A stretch of 64,000 nt of DNA from Natronobeatus ordinarius. GTDB lineage: Archaea; Halobacteriota; Halobacteria; Halobacteriales; Natrialbaceae. Below the pieces are notes generated by a model. That model was given only the letters and a program-made list of their open reading frames with translations, did no database searches and was not told where the DNA came from. The stretch covers positions 372,001-436,000 of the forward strand of contig NZ_CP101456.1 in the NCBI RefSeq assembly GCF_024362485.1, given 5' to 3'. The translations under genes and the position numbers were made by a program. Numbering within the stretch: the stretch's first letter is position 1; every line of letters starts with the position of its first letter. Positions 47,378-57,149 of this stretch are shown in pieces.

Positions 47378-47382
47378 TTTTT
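47378..47382 (+). promoter_or_regulatory. TATA-like T-run of the first hsp20
   Basis: GTTTTTG lies about 26-31 bases before the ATG at 47408 and is preceded by AGAAG, similar in layout to the thermosome promoter. Confidence 0.4.
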
Positions 47383-47407
47383 GCTACGTCGCCTACTACG
47401 TCCGTCC

Positions 47408-47803
47408 ATGCGCCGAGACGACCGCGACGATCCCTTCGACGACCTCTTTCGCGAGATCGAGCGGATGATGAACGAGATGATGAGCGGCGCGAACGTGAAC
47501 TTCGAGTCACAGGCGAACGTCGACACCGGCTTCGGGATGGACACCCACGTCGACGTCCACGAGACCGACGAGGCGATTCGCGTCGTCGCCGACCTCCCCG
47601 GCGTCGAAAAGCAGAACATCGACCTCGAGTGCGATGGCGAGACGCTCACGATCTCGGCCCGGAGCGACCACCGCGAGTACGACGAACGCATCACCCTCCC
47701 TCGCCGGGTGAACGAACACACCGCGACCGCCACCTACAACAACGGCGTCCTCGAGATCGTCTTCGACCCCGCCGAGGAGTCTTCGGACATCACCCTCGAG
47801 TAA
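47408..47803 (+). CDS. hsp20: Hsp20/alpha-crystallin-family small heat-shock protein
   Basis: 131 residues from the ATG at 47408; an in-frame start at 47381 is possible. The alpha-crystallin domain spans ~45-125 with VDVHETDEAIRVVADLPGV and the terminal strand YNNGVLEIVF. The N-terminal arm is Met-rich (ERMMNEMM). An ATP-independent chaperone. A second member lies at 56727. Confidence 0.93.
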   Translation: MRRDDRDDPFDDLFREIERMMNEMMSGANVNFESQANVDTGFGMDTHVDVHETDEAIRVVADLPGVEKQNIDLECDGETLTISARSDHREYDERITLPRRVNEHTATATYNNGVLEIVFDPAEESSDITLE

Positions 47804-50593: not shown

Positions 50594-50717
50594 CTATAGT
50601 AACCGTTGAACGTCATTGCACACTCGGTCACGACCATCGGCGGTCAGCCTCTTCGACGAGGTTGAGGCTGACCGTTCGGCTGTGGCCGGGTGTAACTCGT
50701 TTCAACGAGTACTATAG
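50594..50717. repeat. Palindromic MITE-like element, copy 1
   Basis: 124 bases bounded by ctatag at both ends. The left half (ctatagtaaccgttgaa...) and the reverse complement of the right half (ctatagtactcgttgaaa...) match along ~55 bases, so the whole element can fold into one long imperfect hairpin. The apex stem is ggtcagcctc/gaggctgacc. A second copy in opposite orientation lies at 56367-56489. No transposase is present. Confidence 0.85.
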
Positions 50718-50759
50718 ACGACCGAAGAGCGTCGAGGGAAGACCGATGTCGGCAGCGCG

Positions 50760-50765
50760 TTTAAG
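50760..50765 (+). promoter_or_regulatory. TATA box of the site-2 protease gene
   Basis: TTTAAG lies 25-30 bases before the ATG at 50790 and 43 bases beyond the palindromic element. Confidence 0.55.
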
Positions 50766-50789
50766 ACGATTCCGCCACTATCGCTCAGT

Positions 50790-52013
50790 ATGAAGAGTTT
50801 CCAGATCGGGTCACTGTTCGACATCCCGATCAAGCTCGATCTGACGTTTCTGCTCGTTCTTCCGCTGTTTGCGTATCTCATCGGCGCCCAGATCGAGCCG
50901 GTCGTCGACATCCTCAATCTGCTCTGGGAAGCCGACATCGCCGCCGACGCCATCACCGGTGGTCTGACGCCGTGGGTGCTCGGACTGACCGCCGCGATCG
51001 GGCTGTTCGTCGGCGTCTTGCTGCACGAACTCGGCCACTCGATCACGGCCCAGCGGTATGGCTACCCGATCGATTCGATCACGCTCTGGCTGTTCGGCGG
51101 GATCGCCGCCCTCTCGGAGATGCCCGAGGACTGGCGCCAGGAACTGAACATCGCCATCGCCGGGCCGATCGTCAGCGTTCTCGTCGGCGTCGTCTCCTAC
51201 GGGCTGTTTCTGCTGGCTCCGCCGGTGCTCGGCGACCTCGTCGCCGCGGCGACCCTCGACGGCGTGCTGTTCGTCCTCGGCTACCTCGCCGTCCTCAACG
51301 TCGCGCTCGCGGTGTTCAACATGCTTCCCGCGTTCCCGATGGACGGCGGGCGCGTCCTCCGGGCACTGCTCGCTCGCAACCGACCCTACGCACGGGCGAC
51401 ACAGCAGGCCGCGAGCGTCGGCAAACTGTTCGCCATCGCCATGGGCCTGTTCGGCCTGGTCGGGCTCAACATAATCCTCATCGGCGTCGCCTTCTTCGTC
51501 TACATCGCCGCCTCGAGTGAGGCCCAGCAGGTCGTGATGAAAGCCGCCTTCGAGGGAATCACCGTCGACGACATCATGACGCGGTCGCCCGACCTTCACA
51601 CCGTCGCTCCCGAGACGACCGTCGAGGAACTCATCCACCGGATGTTCAGCGAACGTCACACGGGCTATCCCGTCCTCGAGAACGGTCATCTCATCGGGCT
51701 CGTGACCCTCGAGGACGCCCGCGAGGTCGATCCCATCGAACGCGACGCCTACCGGGTCGAGGACGTGATGACGACCGATCTCGAGACGATCGGTCCCAAC
51801 GCGGACGCGATGGACGCCTTAGAGCGGATGCAACGGGAACGGATCGGCCGGCTGCTGGTCGTCGATCGGGACGATCAGGCGTTCGGCACTTACGCACGCG
51901 ACAACGGTGACCTGGTCGGGCTCGTCTCCCGGACCGACGTCATGACCGCCCTGAACGTCGTCCAGCAGAGCGGCTCGGTGGATCCCTCGCGGGTGGACCG
52001 CACGGCCGATTGA
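50790..52013 (+). CDS. Site-2-protease-family intramembrane metalloprotease with CBS domains
   Basis: 407 residues. Five or six membrane helices carry the zinc motif HELGH (79-83) and the third ligand in NMLPAFPMDGGR (Asp185). Two CBS domains follow (~250-305 and 325-400), which bind adenine nucleotides and probably gate activity. Cuts membrane-bound regulators; the substrate is unknown. First gene after palindromic copy 1. Confidence 0.93.
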   Translation: MKSFQIGSLFDIPIKLDLTFLLVLPLFAYLIGAQIEPVVDILNLLWEADIAADAITGGLTPWVLGLTAAIGLFVGVLLHELGHSITAQRYGYPIDSITLWLFGGIAALSEMPEDWRQELNIAIAGPIVSVLVGVVSYGLFLLAPPVLGDLVAAATLDGVLFVLGYLAVLNVALAVFNMLPAFPMDGGRVLRALLARNRPYARATQQAASVGKLFAIAMGLFGLVGLNIILIGVAFFVYIAASSEAQQVVMKAAFEGITVDDIMTRSPDLHTVAPETTVEELIHRMFSERHTGYPVLENGHLIGLVTLEDAREVDPIERDAYRVEDVMTTDLETIGPNADAMDALERMQRERIGRLLVVDRDDQAFGTYARDNGDLVGLVSRTDVMTALNVVQQSGSVDPSRVDRTAD

Positions 52014-52062
52014 CCGGCTCCAACGCGACACGTTTATTCTCCCGCCGTGCGCGCACGGGGAC

Positions 52063-52542
52063 ATGTACCGATCTGGAGCCTTCGTCGCCGACCACGTCTC
52101 GCCGATCGCCGACGAACAGGTCCAGCCCAACGGCGTCGACCTCACGCTCGACGTCGTCTTCGAACAGCGCGAGCCCGGCCGCATCGGCCGGGACGGCAAG
52201 GAGATCGGCGACCGGATCGCCCGCCCGCTCGAGGAGCTCGACCAGAAGGTGCCGACGACCTACTACCTGCCGCCCGGCGCCTACGTCGTCCGCTACGGCG
52301 AGCGCATCCACATCCCCGAGGGTCACGTCGGCTTTCTCTACCCGCGGTCGTCGCTGCTGCGCAACTCCTGTATGCTGAACACGGCGGTGTGGGACGCTGG
52401 CTACGAGGGCCGCGGCGAGGGACTGCTCCAGGTCCACCACGACGTCGAACTCGAGCGCGGCGCGCGGATCGCCCAGCTCGTGCTGACCGAGGCCGACCAC
52501 GAGACGGTGTACGACGGATCGTACCAGGGCGAAAATCTGTGA
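52063..52542 (+). CDS. dUTPase/dCTP deaminase-family nucleotidohydrolase
   Basis: 159 residues. VGFLYPRSSLLRNSC and AVWDAGYEGRGEGLL are the trimer active-site motifs of the DCD/dUTPase fold, and QPNGVDLTLD is the family N-terminal motif. By similarity to archaeal MJ1102-like proteins it removes dUTP and may also deaminate dCTP. TTTATT lies 25-30 bases upstream (52033-52038). Confidence 0.88.
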   Translation: MYRSGAFVADHVSPIADEQVQPNGVDLTLDVVFEQREPGRIGRDGKEIGDRIARPLEELDQKVPTTYYLPPGAYVVRYGERIHIPEGHVGFLYPRSSLLRNSCMLNTAVWDAGYEGRGEGLLQVHHDVELERGARIAQLVLTEADHETVYDGSYQGENL

Positions 52543-52600
52543 TACTGATGCGACCGGTTCGCGTACCGTTTTCTCCTCCCAGCCCGTAGGTGGCCACGAC

Positions 52601-53161
52601 ATGATGGCGACGACGCACGCGTTCGCTGGACTCGCCGTCGTCGCCCCGGTCGCCTACGCCGTTCCCGAGCTCGCTGTCCCCCTCGCCGTCGGCGCGCTCC
52701 TCGGCGGGATCGCCCCCGACTTCGACCTCGTCCTCGAGCACCGCCGAACGCTGCACTTTCCTGTCTACGGGCTCCTTGGTGCTGTCCCCGCGGTCGGCGT
52801 CGCCGCTCTCGTCCCCTCGAGCGTCACCGTCGCGCTTGCGGCGGTCGCCGTCGCCGCCTGGCTCCACGCGGCGAGCGACGCTTTCGGCGGCGGCCTCGAG
52901 ATGGATCCGTGGACGAACCCCACCGAGCGCGCCGTCTACGACCACTGGCGCCGGCGGTGGGTGCGTCCCCGGCGGTGGATCCGCTACGACGGCGCGCCCG
53001 AGGACGCCGCGCTGGCGGTCGCGCTGGCCGTCCCCGCGTTCGTCGTCGTCGACGGTCACGGCTGGCTCGAGGCGCTCGTCGTCGTCGGCGTTGCAGTCTC
53101 GATCGCCTACGCACTCGCCCGGCGGCGGATCGCCAGGTGGAGCCCCGACTGGCTCGAGTGA
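52601..53161 (+). CDS. YdjM-like (DUF457) membrane-bound metal-dependent hydrolase
   Basis: 186 residues. MATTHAFAGL at the start and GGIAPDFDLVLEHRRTLHF are the metal-binding motifs, with WLHAASDAFGGG in a further membrane segment. Four or so hydrophobic helices. The family is predicted to be a phospholipase-like hydrolase; no activity can be assigned here. Starts at 52601 or the next codon. Confidence 0.85.
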   Translation: MMATTHAFAGLAVVAPVAYAVPELAVPLAVGALLGGIAPDFDLVLEHRRTLHFPVYGLLGAVPAVGVAALVPSSVTVALAAVAVAAWLHAASDAFGGGLEMDPWTNPTERAVYDHWRRRWVRPRRWIRYDGAPEDAALAVALAVPAFVVVDGHGWLEALVVVGVAVSIAYALARRRIARWSPDWLE

Positions 53162-53209
53162 CGGTCGAGAATCGCAAGGCCTTACGCCGGCGGTCCCCGA
53201 CGGACGGCC

Positions 53210-53689
53210 ATGAGCACGATCCGAATCGTCTGGGGGTCGGCCTCGGCCCCGACGAAGATGTCCTCCTACGACGCCGCCCTCGCCGACGCGGGCGTCGAGA
53301 ACTACAACCTCGTCGCCGTCTCGTCGGTGATCCCCGCCGGCGTCGACGTCGAGGCCGTCGGCACCGCTCCCGACCTCGGGCCCGCCGGCGAACGGCTGAC
53401 GGTCGTCGAAGCGCGGGCAACGGCCGCCGGCCCGAGCAGCGTCGCCGCGGCGCTGGGCTGGGTCGAGTCGGTCGACGACGGGCCGGGGCTGTTCTACGAG
53501 GCGTCGGGGGAGATCGACGCGGCCGACGTCGAGAACCGGGTCCTCGAGGGACTCGCTGCCGGGAGCGAACTCCGGGACTGGGAGCTGGGTGAGCCGAGCG
53601 TCCGCGTCGAGTCGAGCGAAGCCGAATCGGGCACGTACACCACGTCGGTCGTGCTGGCTGTGTACGGCGAGAGCGATCCGATTCTGTAG
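53210..53689 (+). CDS. pdaD: Pyruvoyl-dependent arginine decarboxylase
   Basis: 159 residues. The self-cleavage site is VSSVIPAG with Ser38-Ser39; chain cleavage between them makes the pyruvoyl group, as in the Methanocaldococcus enzyme. IRIVWGSASAPTKMSSYDAAL is the N-terminal part. It makes agmatine, which archaea need for the agmatidine modification of tRNA-Ile. Confidence 0.92.
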   Translation: MSTIRIVWGSASAPTKMSSYDAALADAGVENYNLVAVSSVIPAGVDVEAVGTAPDLGPAGERLTVVEARATAAGPSSVAAALGWVESVDDGPGLFYEASGEIDAADVENRVLEGLAAGSELRDWELGEPSVRVESSEAESGTYTTSVVLAVYGESDPIL

Positions 53690-53768
53690 CCTCCTTTGGT
53701 CTGTGGTAGCGCTTCTCGAGCCGAATCATTTTTACGACCTGGCCGGGTACGAACGGTAACGAATTCTT

Positions 53769-54161
53769 ATGAACGGGAACACGCCCTACGCGGGGCTACC
53801 GGGTGTGACGCAAGCGGGTCACCGGGCAGCGACTGACGTGCCGGAGCTCTCCGGCGAGCAGCGCCGGACGCTTCGGCGGGACGTCTCCCGGATCGCCGCC
53901 CGTACCCGCGAGCTCTTACCCGACGAGTACGTCGTCGACGCCGAGATCTCGACGGGGATCGCGGGGCCGCAGGTGACCGTCGCCGTTCAGCCGCCGATCG
54001 GCCATCCGGTCAGCGCCGGCTTCACCCCCGCACTCGAGGACGATCGCGACGAACTCATCGACGCAGACGATCGCGACGAGGTCGCCCGGGGGCTCGCCGC
54101 CAGCGCGGCGCTCCAGGTGAAGCTGGCCGTCGGCGACGACGTGACGCCGACGGCCCAGTGA
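53769..54161 (+). CDS. Haloarchaeal protein of unknown function (DUF5811-like)
   Basis: 130 residues, soluble and acidic. N-terminus MNGNTPYAGLPGV, then a helix (LSGEQRRTLRRDVSRIAARTRE-type) and a beta region with GPQVTVAVQPPIGHPVSAGF. I believe it matches DUF5811, which has no known function. It ends 4 bases before the convergent flavin reductase gene. Confidence 0.75.
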   Translation: MNGNTPYAGLPGVTQAGHRAATDVPELSGEQRRTLRRDVSRIAARTRELLPDEYVVDAEISTGIAGPQVTVAVQPPIGHPVSAGFTPALEDDRDELIDADDRDEVARGLAASAALQVKLAVGDDVTPTAQ

Positions 54162-54165
54162 TCGG

Positions 54166-54768
54166 TCAGCGTCGCTCGAGGTCGGCGTGCTCGCCCACCG
54201 TGTAGTACGGCCCGCCGAGTCGCCCCACTGTCTCGAACGTCGTCGCGTCGATCTCGCCGTCGGTGAGGAGCTCGTCTGCGAGGTGGACGCACTCGACCTC
54301 GCCGAACAGCACCAGCCGGTCTTTGACGCGCATCGTCTCGAACAGCGAGCACTCCATCGTGGCGATGGCGTCGGCGACCCGTGGGGCCGCGATTTCGCGA
54401 CACGGCGCCCGCTCGAGGTCGAACGCGTCGAACTCACTCTCCTCGGGCTCGAGCGCGGCGGCCGTCCGGTCCATCGCCTCGGCGACGTCCTCGGTGACGA
54501 CGTTGACGGCGAACTCGCCGGTGTCGACGGCGTTTCGCGCCGTATCCTTCAGCTCCTCGTCCCCATCGTCGTCCTCGCGGACGCCCGTGCTGACCATCAG
54601 CAGCGGGTGACTCGAGCTGACGTAGTTGTACGCGCTGAACGGCGCGAGGTTGTCGACGCCGTCGGGGCTCACGGTACTGACCCAGGCGATCGGCCGGGGG
54701 CTCACGAGCGACTTGATTACGCGACTGTTCACGTCGGTGTCGACGGCTGCGGGGGCGAACGTCTCCAT
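54166..54768 (-). CDS. Flavin reductase-like FMN-binding protein
   Basis: 200 residues from the ATG at 54768, chosen because GATTATG (54794-54800) is a fitting TATA box; GTG 54789 and ATG 54837 are possible. SLVSPRPIAWVSTVSPDGVDNLAPFS is the FMN-binding core of the family, shortened here as a landmark by its first and last residues (Ser-Leu-Val to Pro-Phe-Ser). HADLER ends the chain. Likely a flavin reductase or oxidoreductase; partner unknown. Confidence 0.88.
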   Translation of the reverse strand: METFAPAAVDTDVNSRVIKSLVSPRPIAWVSTVSPDGVDNLAPFSAYNYVSSSHPLLMVSTGVREDDDGDEELKDTARNAVDTGEFAVNVVTEDVAEAMDRTAAALEPEESEFDAFDLERAPCREIAAPRVADAIATMECSLFETMRVKDRLVLFGEVECVHLADELLTDGEIDATTFETVGRLGGPYYTVGEHADLERR

Positions 54769-54876
54769 GTCGAGGGTCGTTTCGCTCACGCGGCCATAAT
54801 CGCTCGGGCTCCGGCGAACGGCGGCCGGAGCCAGCATCGGCAGCCCCCGTCGGTCGACGTCCGCCTCGACGGTTCG

Positions 54877-56253
54877 CTACTGGGCCTCGCCGGCGTCGAC
54901 GACCTGGCCGAGAAAGAGCAGGCTCCCCGTCTCGTCGTCACGGATCGCGAAGAGGAACGGCCGGTCGACGGTTACGTCGAACGTTTCGGCGGGTGCGCTC
55001 GTCGGCACCATGGTCACGCCGGTCGCCGCGGCGGCCTCCGTTCCTTCCTCGTCGACGGCGACGTAGGCGTCGTGGTAGACGTCCTCGATCATGAGCGAGG
55101 GGGCCGACTCGTCCGACTCGAGCATTCCCGTAAAGTCCGCCTGGTTGGTGAACGCGACCTCCATACCGAGTGCGGCCAGCGCGTCGCGGACGCTGAACGA
55201 GGACTCGAACTCGAACCGGGGGAGTGCGAGGTCGCCGCTCGCGTCGGCCGTCGCCTCGAGTAATTCGTCGAGCCGATCGACGTCGAGTGAGTCGCGGAAG
55301 GCTTCGAACTCACCCGCGGCGGGGAGGAAGACGACCATCGTCGCGTCGCCCTCGTAGGGTAACTCGAGCACCTGGTGGCCGTCGACGGCGGCGTAGCGCG
55401 TCCGGAGATGCTGGTGCATCATCGGGACGGTGGACTCGCTCCCGTCGAGGGCGGTGAACGGTCCGTCCTCGGTCTCGTCCTCGTCGAACTGGTTCGCCCA
55501 GTTCGCGAGGAAGTAGATGGCGTTGGTCAACACGAGTTTCGTGTCCCCGTGGACCGAGCCCTCGGGGAGCAACTCCTCGATCTTGTCCTCGGTTTCCTCG
55601 GCCACCCAGTCGTTGATCTCCGCCCGGGCAGGCTCGGGTGCGGCTTCGAAGTCGAGGGTTCGCAGCCCGGCACCGTAGTTGCGCGCGAGCGTCTCGAGGA
55701 ACGCGTCGCCGAACGGGTAGTCGGCCTGCCCCCAGATCGCGTTCGCGATGCGGAGGGTGAACTCGGTGGCGTCCTCGTCCTCGTCATCTCCGTCGGCCGG
55801 TGTGTCCTCCTCGAGCGACTGGGAGAGGGCGTTGAACGTCTCGTGAAGCTGTTGCTGGTCGTGAGGGAACGCGAGCGTGTCGGCCATCGCCGTCTCGGTC
55901 TCGCCGCGGGCCCCCGCCCACGCCATCGCCAGCGCGAGCGAGACGCTGTACGGCGACGCGAAGTGGTTCGTCTCCTCGTCGTCGGCGAGTTCGCCGAGCA
56001 ACGCGAGGGAGAACGTGTTGACCCCGTCGACGAGCGCCTCGAGTGCGTCGTCGGAGACGGCGGGAGCGGCTCGATCGACGTCGGCCGAGAGGAGCTGACC
56101 GTCGATCGGTGCGTCTCCACCGCTCGGCTCCGGCGACGGTTCCGAATCCGTGTCGTCGGTGTCGGTCATCGTACAACCTCCGAGGGCTGCCATCGTAATT
56201 CCTGCGAGCGCGAGGACGTCGCGCCGGTTCGTCGTCATCGGTACCAGAGACAT
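54877..56253 (-). CDS. Secreted serpin (protease inhibitor) lipoprotein
   Basis: 458 residues; an in-frame ATG at 56238 is the alternative start. A Tat signal (NRRDVLALAG) ends in the lipobox LGGC, so it should be anchored outside the membrane. The serpin body includes ASPYSVSLALAMAWAGA and NAIYF. The hinge EEGTEAAAATGV is intact, so the protein should be inhibitory. Counting from the hinge places P1-P1' at Thr418-Ser419 in MVPTSAPAE, which suggests a subtilisin- or elastase-like target such as a halolysin (inference). DRPFLFAIRD is the C-terminal signature. An acidic insert lies around residue 155. Confidence 0.92.
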   Translation of the reverse strand: MSLVPMTTNRRDVLALAGITMAALGGCTMTDTDDTDSEPSPEPSGGDAPIDGQLLSADVDRAAPAVSDDALEALVDGVNTFSLALLGELADDEETNHFASPYSVSLALAMAWAGARGETETAMADTLAFPHDQQQLHETFNALSQSLEEDTPADGDDEDEDATEFTLRIANAIWGQADYPFGDAFLETLARNYGAGLRTLDFEAAPEPARAEINDWVAEETEDKIEELLPEGSVHGDTKLVLTNAIYFLANWANQFDEDETEDGPFTALDGSESTVPMMHQHLRTRYAAVDGHQVLELPYEGDATMVVFLPAAGEFEAFRDSLDVDRLDELLEATADASGDLALPRFEFESSFSVRDALAALGMEVAFTNQADFTGMLESDESAPSLMIEDVYHDAYVAVDEEGTEAAAATGVTMVPTSAPAETFDVTVDRPFLFAIRDDETGSLLFLGQVVDAGEAQ

Positions 56254-56366
56254 TCGGGTCCGAACATATCACGTCACCCCAAGCTGAAACGGTCGTTTGA
56301 CCTTTCCCGATCGTCGATTGTGCGGGGCTGCCGACGGGGCGCTTCGATTTCGGCTTCTGTTGCCCT

Positions 56367-56489
56367 CTATAGCACTCGTTGAAACGATTTACACCCGTCC
56401 ACAGCCGAACGGGCAGCCTCGGCCTCGTTGGCGAGGCTGCCCGCCAACGGTCGTGACCGGGTGTGCAATGACTTTCAACGGTTACTATA
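56367..56489. repeat. Palindromic MITE-like element, copy 2 (inverted relative to copy 1)
   Basis: 123 bases from ctatag to ctatag. Its reverse complement aligns with copy 1 over the full length with scattered substitutions. The apex stem is gggcagcctcg/cgaggctgccc; compared with copy 1, a T-A pair has become G-C, so both partners changed together. Confidence 0.85.
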
Positions 56490-56511
56490 GTACTCACTTC
56501 AACGAGTACTA
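56486..56511. repeat. Extra terminal-repeat fragment beside copy 2
   Basis: atagtactc (56486-56494) and gagtactat (56503-56511) form a perfect 9-base inverted repeat around acttcaac. The right arm repeats the ttcaacgagtactat end seen in copy 1, suggesting a fragment of another element copy abutting copy 2. Confidence 0.6.
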
Positions 56512-56565
56512 TCGCTCTCCCTGTAGCTCCATAGCTATATGCTACCTTGGAACATGCATTGCTGT

Positions 56566-56726: not shown

Positions 56727-57149
56727 ATGCGGCGAAACCCCTTCGAAGAACTCGAGGAGATGCTCGATCGCCTGAGCAGCCAGGTCGAAGAAGGAATGAC
56801 CCGGGGAGGCGGGCTCCCCGTTCCGGGCGACGTGGCCGTCGACGTCGCGGACGCTCACGACGAGTACGTCGTGACGGCGGACTTGCCGGGCTATGAGACC
56901 GACGACATCGAACTGACCCTGTCGGAGGGGACGCTTCGGCTCGAGGCCAGTCACGAGGAACGTACCGCACACGAGGAAGGCCAGTACCTCCGTCGAGAGC
57001 GCAGCCAGCGGTCGGCGAGTCGCCGGATCCGCCTGCCCGAACCCGTCGACGAGGAGAACGTGACGGCGTCGTACAACAACGGCGTGCTGACCGTGACGCT
57101 CCCGAAGGAGTCCGAAGGCGAGGAGTCGAAGCAGATCGACATCGACTGA
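56727..57149 (+). CDS. hsp20: Hsp20/alpha-crystallin-family small heat-shock protein (second copy)
   Basis: 140 residues. The alpha-crystallin domain (~38-130) includes VDVADAHDEYVVTADLPGYETDDIELTL in part and the terminal strand YNNGVLTVTLPK. Its N-terminal arm (RRNPFEELEEMLDRLSSQ) differs from that of the first hsp20, so the two probably form distinct oligomers. Followed by strong hairpins. Confidence 0.93.
   Translation: MRRNPFEELEEMLDRLSSQVEEGMTRGGGLPVPGDVAVDVADAHDEYVVTADLPGYETDDIELTLSEGTLRLEASHEERTAHEEGQYLRRERSQRSASRRIRLPEPVDEENVTASYNNGVLTVTLPKESEGEESKQIDID

Follow-up and report, generated by a model that had tools for sequence, protein, structure and literature searches.

The two elements and the genes between them

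The window, that is the whole stretch of DNA analysed here, is a fragment of 64,000 nucleotides of Natronobeatus ordinarius (contig NZ_CP101456.1). It contains seven genes enclosed by two short palindromic elements. By comparison with Pfam the gene products are an M50 site-2 protease with CBS domains, a dCTP deaminase, a YdjM-like membrane protein (an assignment which scores below Pfam's cut-off), a pyruvoyl-dependent arginine decarboxylase, a DUF5811 protein, a flavin reductase and a serpin. This agrees with the first-pass annotation, made from the sequence alone, which had placed seven genes from the site-2 protease to the serpin between the elements. Two Hsp20-type genes are found on either side of the block, at 47381-47803 and 56727-57149. 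The features of the locus are as follows.

50595..50716, + strand: copy 1 of the probable MITE, 122 bp from TATA to TATA
50597-50714: mobile unit of copy 1 if the TA is duplicated, with a TA on each side; the TA duplication is seen on a sister copy
50595..50627, + strand: left end of copy 1, TATAGTAACCGTTGAACGTCATTGCACACTCGG, an end type resembling the IS630 right end
50686..50716, + strand: right end of copy 1, CCGGGTGTAACTCGTTTCAACGAGTACTATA
50790..52013, + strand: site-2 protease gene (M50 + CBS), whose start is 73 bp downstream from copy 1; neighbouring gene, outside the element
54877..56253, - strand: serpin gene, whose start is 114 bp away from copy 2; neighbouring gene, outside the element
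56368..56489, - strand: copy 2 of the probable MITE, 122 bp, inverted relative to copy 1
56491..56513, strand not assigned: remnant, about 20 bp long, of the end of another element, CACTTCAACGAGTACTATC, abutting copy 2

The element is an imperfect palindrome of 122 bp, TATAGTAACCGTTGAA...TTCAACGAGTACTATA. The first-pass annotation had matched 50594-50717 with the reverse complement of 56367-56489 along the whole length, and the two copies do align from end to end without a gap, with 14 differences (88.5% identity). The motif ctatag, also reported there, is located at all four borders: 50594-50599 and 50712-50717 for copy 1, 56367-56372 and 56485-56490 for copy 2. The description of the elements as palindromic, with terminal inverted repeats, is correct, and the self-folding of both copies far exceeds that of shuffled DNA (z of -6.1 and -8.0, respectively, equalled by none of 200 shuffles). 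However, the mirror symmetry of the arms is incomplete: past the terminal repeat that they share, the inner end is GTCATTGCACAC on the left and, read inwards, CGATTTACACCC on the right, and this difference gives each copy an orientation. Inspection of the open reading frames of both elements revealed none coding for a transposase, as had been noted before, and a search of Rfam with the element matched no family. A remnant similar to that at 56491-56513 flanks another chromosomal copy (L021); judging from the sequence, an older element was probably already there when copy 2 inserted at its end.

Copies in the chromosome and the proposed inversion of the block

When the complete assembly of 4.2 Mb in two contigs was searched, at least 40 near-full-length copies of 84-100% identity were scored, all on the large contig; the scoring took in 40 of 107 first-look candidates. 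The end motif has 117 matches in the assembly and its reversed control has 1. The real number of elements in the genome is probably about 40-60, by estimate 45-60. Thirty-six of the scored copies are exactly 122 bp long, with abrupt ends.

Copy 1 differs at 7 positions from its nearest kin elsewhere in the chromosome, and copy 2 at only 1 position from its own. Each window copy is thus closer to an element elsewhere than to the other window copy, which argues for independent insertions and against a local duplication. The first-pass annotation had named a single ancient local duplication as the alternative to be accepted if the genome and its relatives held no further copies, and the dispersed copies speak against it. 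It had also suggested that the block could be inverted by way of the two oppositely oriented copies. A local inverted duplication which lets the seven genes flip is consistent with the mutual inversion of copies 1 and 2 and with their identity of 88%, but not with the closer kin of each copy. Moreover, neighbouring copies within 5.8 kb of each other occur 3 times in the chromosome, compared with 2.1 expected (P 0.36); pairs this close are no commoner than chance would give, and the bracketing of seven genes looks like a coincidence.

The block itself is not conserved. The dCTP deaminase and the YdjM-like gene are found near each other in 7 of the 8 relatives compared, at varying distance, while the other block genes are mostly not found alongside this pair in the eight. 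The only fetched relative having L10e and S2P on one stretch (G007) shows the same relative orientation as the window. An alternative orientation of the block was seen in none of the eight relatives, the own genome being represented by one assembly. With chance pairing, an unconserved block and no flip in relatives, the inversion proposal finds no support and we regard it as very improbable. Reading the elements as MITEs removes the need for an invertible gene block in the window.

The surroundings of 30 copies, examined with a crude gene call, show no bias: 8 are located between tandem genes, 8 between convergent, 7 between divergent and 7 between reverse tandem genes. Copies L025 and L029 abut other elements, which is to be expected where the element targets CTATAG-like sites. 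The element had no match in a phage search, and its exact pattern is absent from viral contigs. The plasmid search returned a single partial match of 39 bp, on a Salmonella plasmid, which was taken as chance, and in a literature search for the end sequence the strings among the papers listed were all unrelated.

Target site and distribution in haloarchaea

Copy L005 interrupts an open reading frame, and its excision leaving one TA restores the open frame. Four uninterrupted homologues of this frame, with 63-78% protein identity, each favour the junction with one TA over TATA by 6-7 score units. Judged against these homologues instead of a strain pair, this one site shows that insertion duplicates the TA, as far as sequence comparison can tell. 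When frames were restored automatically for 30 copies, L005 was the one informative case, since many frames of haloarchaeal DNA are open.

The flanks of the element show a preferred target. In the own genome position -1 is C in 21 of 40 cases (P 0.005), and position +1 is G in 27 of 39 (P 8e-7); in other genomes the outward base is C in 84 of 116. For IS630 insertions, C precedes the TA in 53 of 66, G follows it in 56 of 66, and both are present in 48 of 66. The C-TA-G target rule is common to the MITE copies and the IS630 elements. ISY100, a member of the IS630 family, inserts into TA and duplicates it (PMC2170065), and the reference list of that paper includes the targeting of TA in CTAG by IS630.

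A pattern taken from the left end is present in 99 of the 392 genomes that represent the order, and in 26 of its 95 genera, and the reversed control had no matches among those listed. Among copies taken from other genomes, a length of exactly 84 bp was found for 39 and the other sizes are mostly about 110-122 bp, the list of sizes including a few spurious pairings. Twenty-one distinct 84-bp sequences from several families fold into a hairpin whose pairs are formed in 94.7% of cells. Changes on both sides of a pair affect 29 cells, where shuffles give 8.2 and slid controls no more than 7, although these counts are inflated by the relatedness of the 21 sequences. The sequence of the internal loop of this hairpin is conserved across haloarchaeal families.

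A covarying hairpin with such a loop, and a length of exactly 84 bp in distant relatives, would also suit a structured regulatory or RNA element (a terminator, a processing signal or a protein-binding hairpin) that is selected at gene boundaries and is not transposable. However, the unbiased gene context of the 30 copies (crude gene call), the interruption of a gene by copy L005, the abutting of elements on one another and the lack of any matching Rfam family do not fit such a role. Matched transposon ends would also produce the symmetry of the hairpin. This possibility appears remote to us, though somewhat less so than the flipping block.

The IS630-family element as candidate partner

The own genome contains six copies of an IS630-family element, of which five are 99.8-100% identical; this suggests that the element was probably active recently. 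It is about 1060 bp long with two ORFs, which encode a DDE_3 transposase in two frames. Its ends are TATAGTAACCGTTAGAA and TATAGTAAAAATTAGAAATAATTGCTCAC, the second beginning with TATAGTAAAAATT. The outer end TATAGTAACCGTT is common to this element and the MITE; they share the outer 13 bp, and the identity of their ends in this genome spans about 13-16 bp only. When 56 haloarchaeal IS630 elements were compared inside the shared TATAGTA, their right ends agreed with the left end of the MITE (z 5.1, p about 0.0025). The resemblance of the MITE right end to IS630 left ends is weak, with p 0.06 when the own copy is used and 0.5 with the 84-bp type. This test, which used distinct end pairs from fetched loci, replaced a noisy pairwise comparison with single IS copies. 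The interior of the IS630 element is unrelated to the MITE, apart from the right inner end.

The element is short and non-coding, with sharp terminal inverted repeats in dispersed copies of fixed length, a TA duplication (at a single site) and a partial match to IS630 ends, among them the outer end of the element in the same genome. These are the properties of a MITE, and the first-pass annotation's remark that the elements are "like a MITE" is well founded. The TA-in-CTAG target rule, as in IS630, is that of an IS630-derived MITE. We consider it likely that the element is an IS630-type MITE which was inserted twice independently in the window and was probably mobilised in trans. In the proposed mechanism, a transposase of the IS630 (Tc1/mariner) type acting in trans would recognise both MITE ends, excise the MITE and move it to a TA, with a preference for the TA of CTAG, and the TA would be duplicated. 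The transposase could be supplied by the IS630 element of the own genome or by a lost relative, and the movement would presumably be cut-and-paste, as in ISY100 and Tc1/mariner.

An autonomous element with complete MITE ends was not found among the loci examined. These were 20 stretches of G018 with unpaired ends, 20 loci of other genomes, 80 named IS630 loci, 13 DDE_3 loci of high-copy genomes and 19 stretches of G124; most resolved to short elements and a few remained unpaired. The diverged IS630 groups L102-L104 were rejected as partners, their ends being different from those of the MITE. A DDE_3 (PF13358) transposase was not detected in 4 of 8 genomes rich in copies (G146, G107, G124 and G005), where either the partner has been lost or another transposase serves.

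RUP of Streptococcus pneumoniae is about 107 bp long, with about 100 intergenic copies at TA targets, and its short terminal repeats resemble those of an IS630 element which has been suggested to move RUP in trans (PMC2229807). By description, RUP and the haloarchaeal MITE are alike in small size, TA target and IS630-like terminal repeats, whereas the MITE has an archaeal host, is more palindromic, is found in many genera and has a conserved 84-bp form. The Correia/NEMIS elements of Neisseria, which fall into classes of about 107 and 155 bp and have terminal inverted repeats, terminal TA and high copy number (PMC2229807), are alike by description in all four respects, but differ in host. The haloarchaeal two-ORF IS630 element has in common with the MITE the outer TATAGTA, the TA-in-CTAG target and a right inner end similar to the MITE left end, but it is about 1060 bp long with a DDE_3 transposase and an otherwise unrelated interior.

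The small mobile repeats (SMRs) of Haloquadratum walsbyi are palindromic and about 110 bp long, with up to 54 copies; SMR-A is non-coding and has strong inverted repeats. By description, SMRs cause no target duplication, lack ends like those of transposons and target IS605/PATE elements (PMC3119063). Like the MITE, SMR-A is haloarchaeal and non-coding, with inverted repeats, a similar size and tens of copies. It might be supposed that our element is also such a repeat, moved by a process unrelated to any known transposase. This would agree with the likeness to the SMRs in size, in copy number and in the strength of the inverted repeats (PMC3119063), with the 84-bp length fixed in several families, with the high-copy genomes in which a DDE_3 transposase escaped detection, and with the lack of a partner with full MITE ends among the loci examined. 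However, the MITE is set apart from the SMRs, as these are described, by its TA duplication, and it has an IS630-like outer end and follows the IS630 target rule. We think this explanation unlikely. In a related proposal, these are order-wide hairpin mobile elements of fixed 84-bp design which move by an undescribed process or were taken over for a host function, because the high copy number persists in genomes without a detectable IS630 transposase; this too seems to us rather doubtful.

As an IS630-type MITE, the element adds to the known RUP-like kind, and what makes it interesting is its wide occurrence and fixed design. A MITE family of near-constant design across several haloarchaeal families is now documented together with a candidate IS630 partner, and the pair offers a simple system for testing trans-mobilisation in archaea. 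A question is raised by the length of 84 bp, which is constant in distant relatives despite diverged sequences.

Several loci show unusual arrangements. At L067:423-1425 the ORF of another DDE_3 transposase is broken, close to its 3' end, by an IS630 copy. At L262:716-2009 (G084) an IS630 element is located within or beside MITE ends, with the terminal TATA in common, which suggests that the MITE and IS630 were repeatedly inserted into each other's ends. In L181, L182, L187 and L222 the IS630 ends occur twice, about 90 bp apart, beside an N, and this is probably an artefact of assembly joining. Finally, the 883 bp between inverted MITE-type ends at L274:394-1276 (G124 C5) enclose a gene which, by eye, resembles a HAD-type hydrolase; this stretch may be a MITE split by insertion or an element carrying a passenger.
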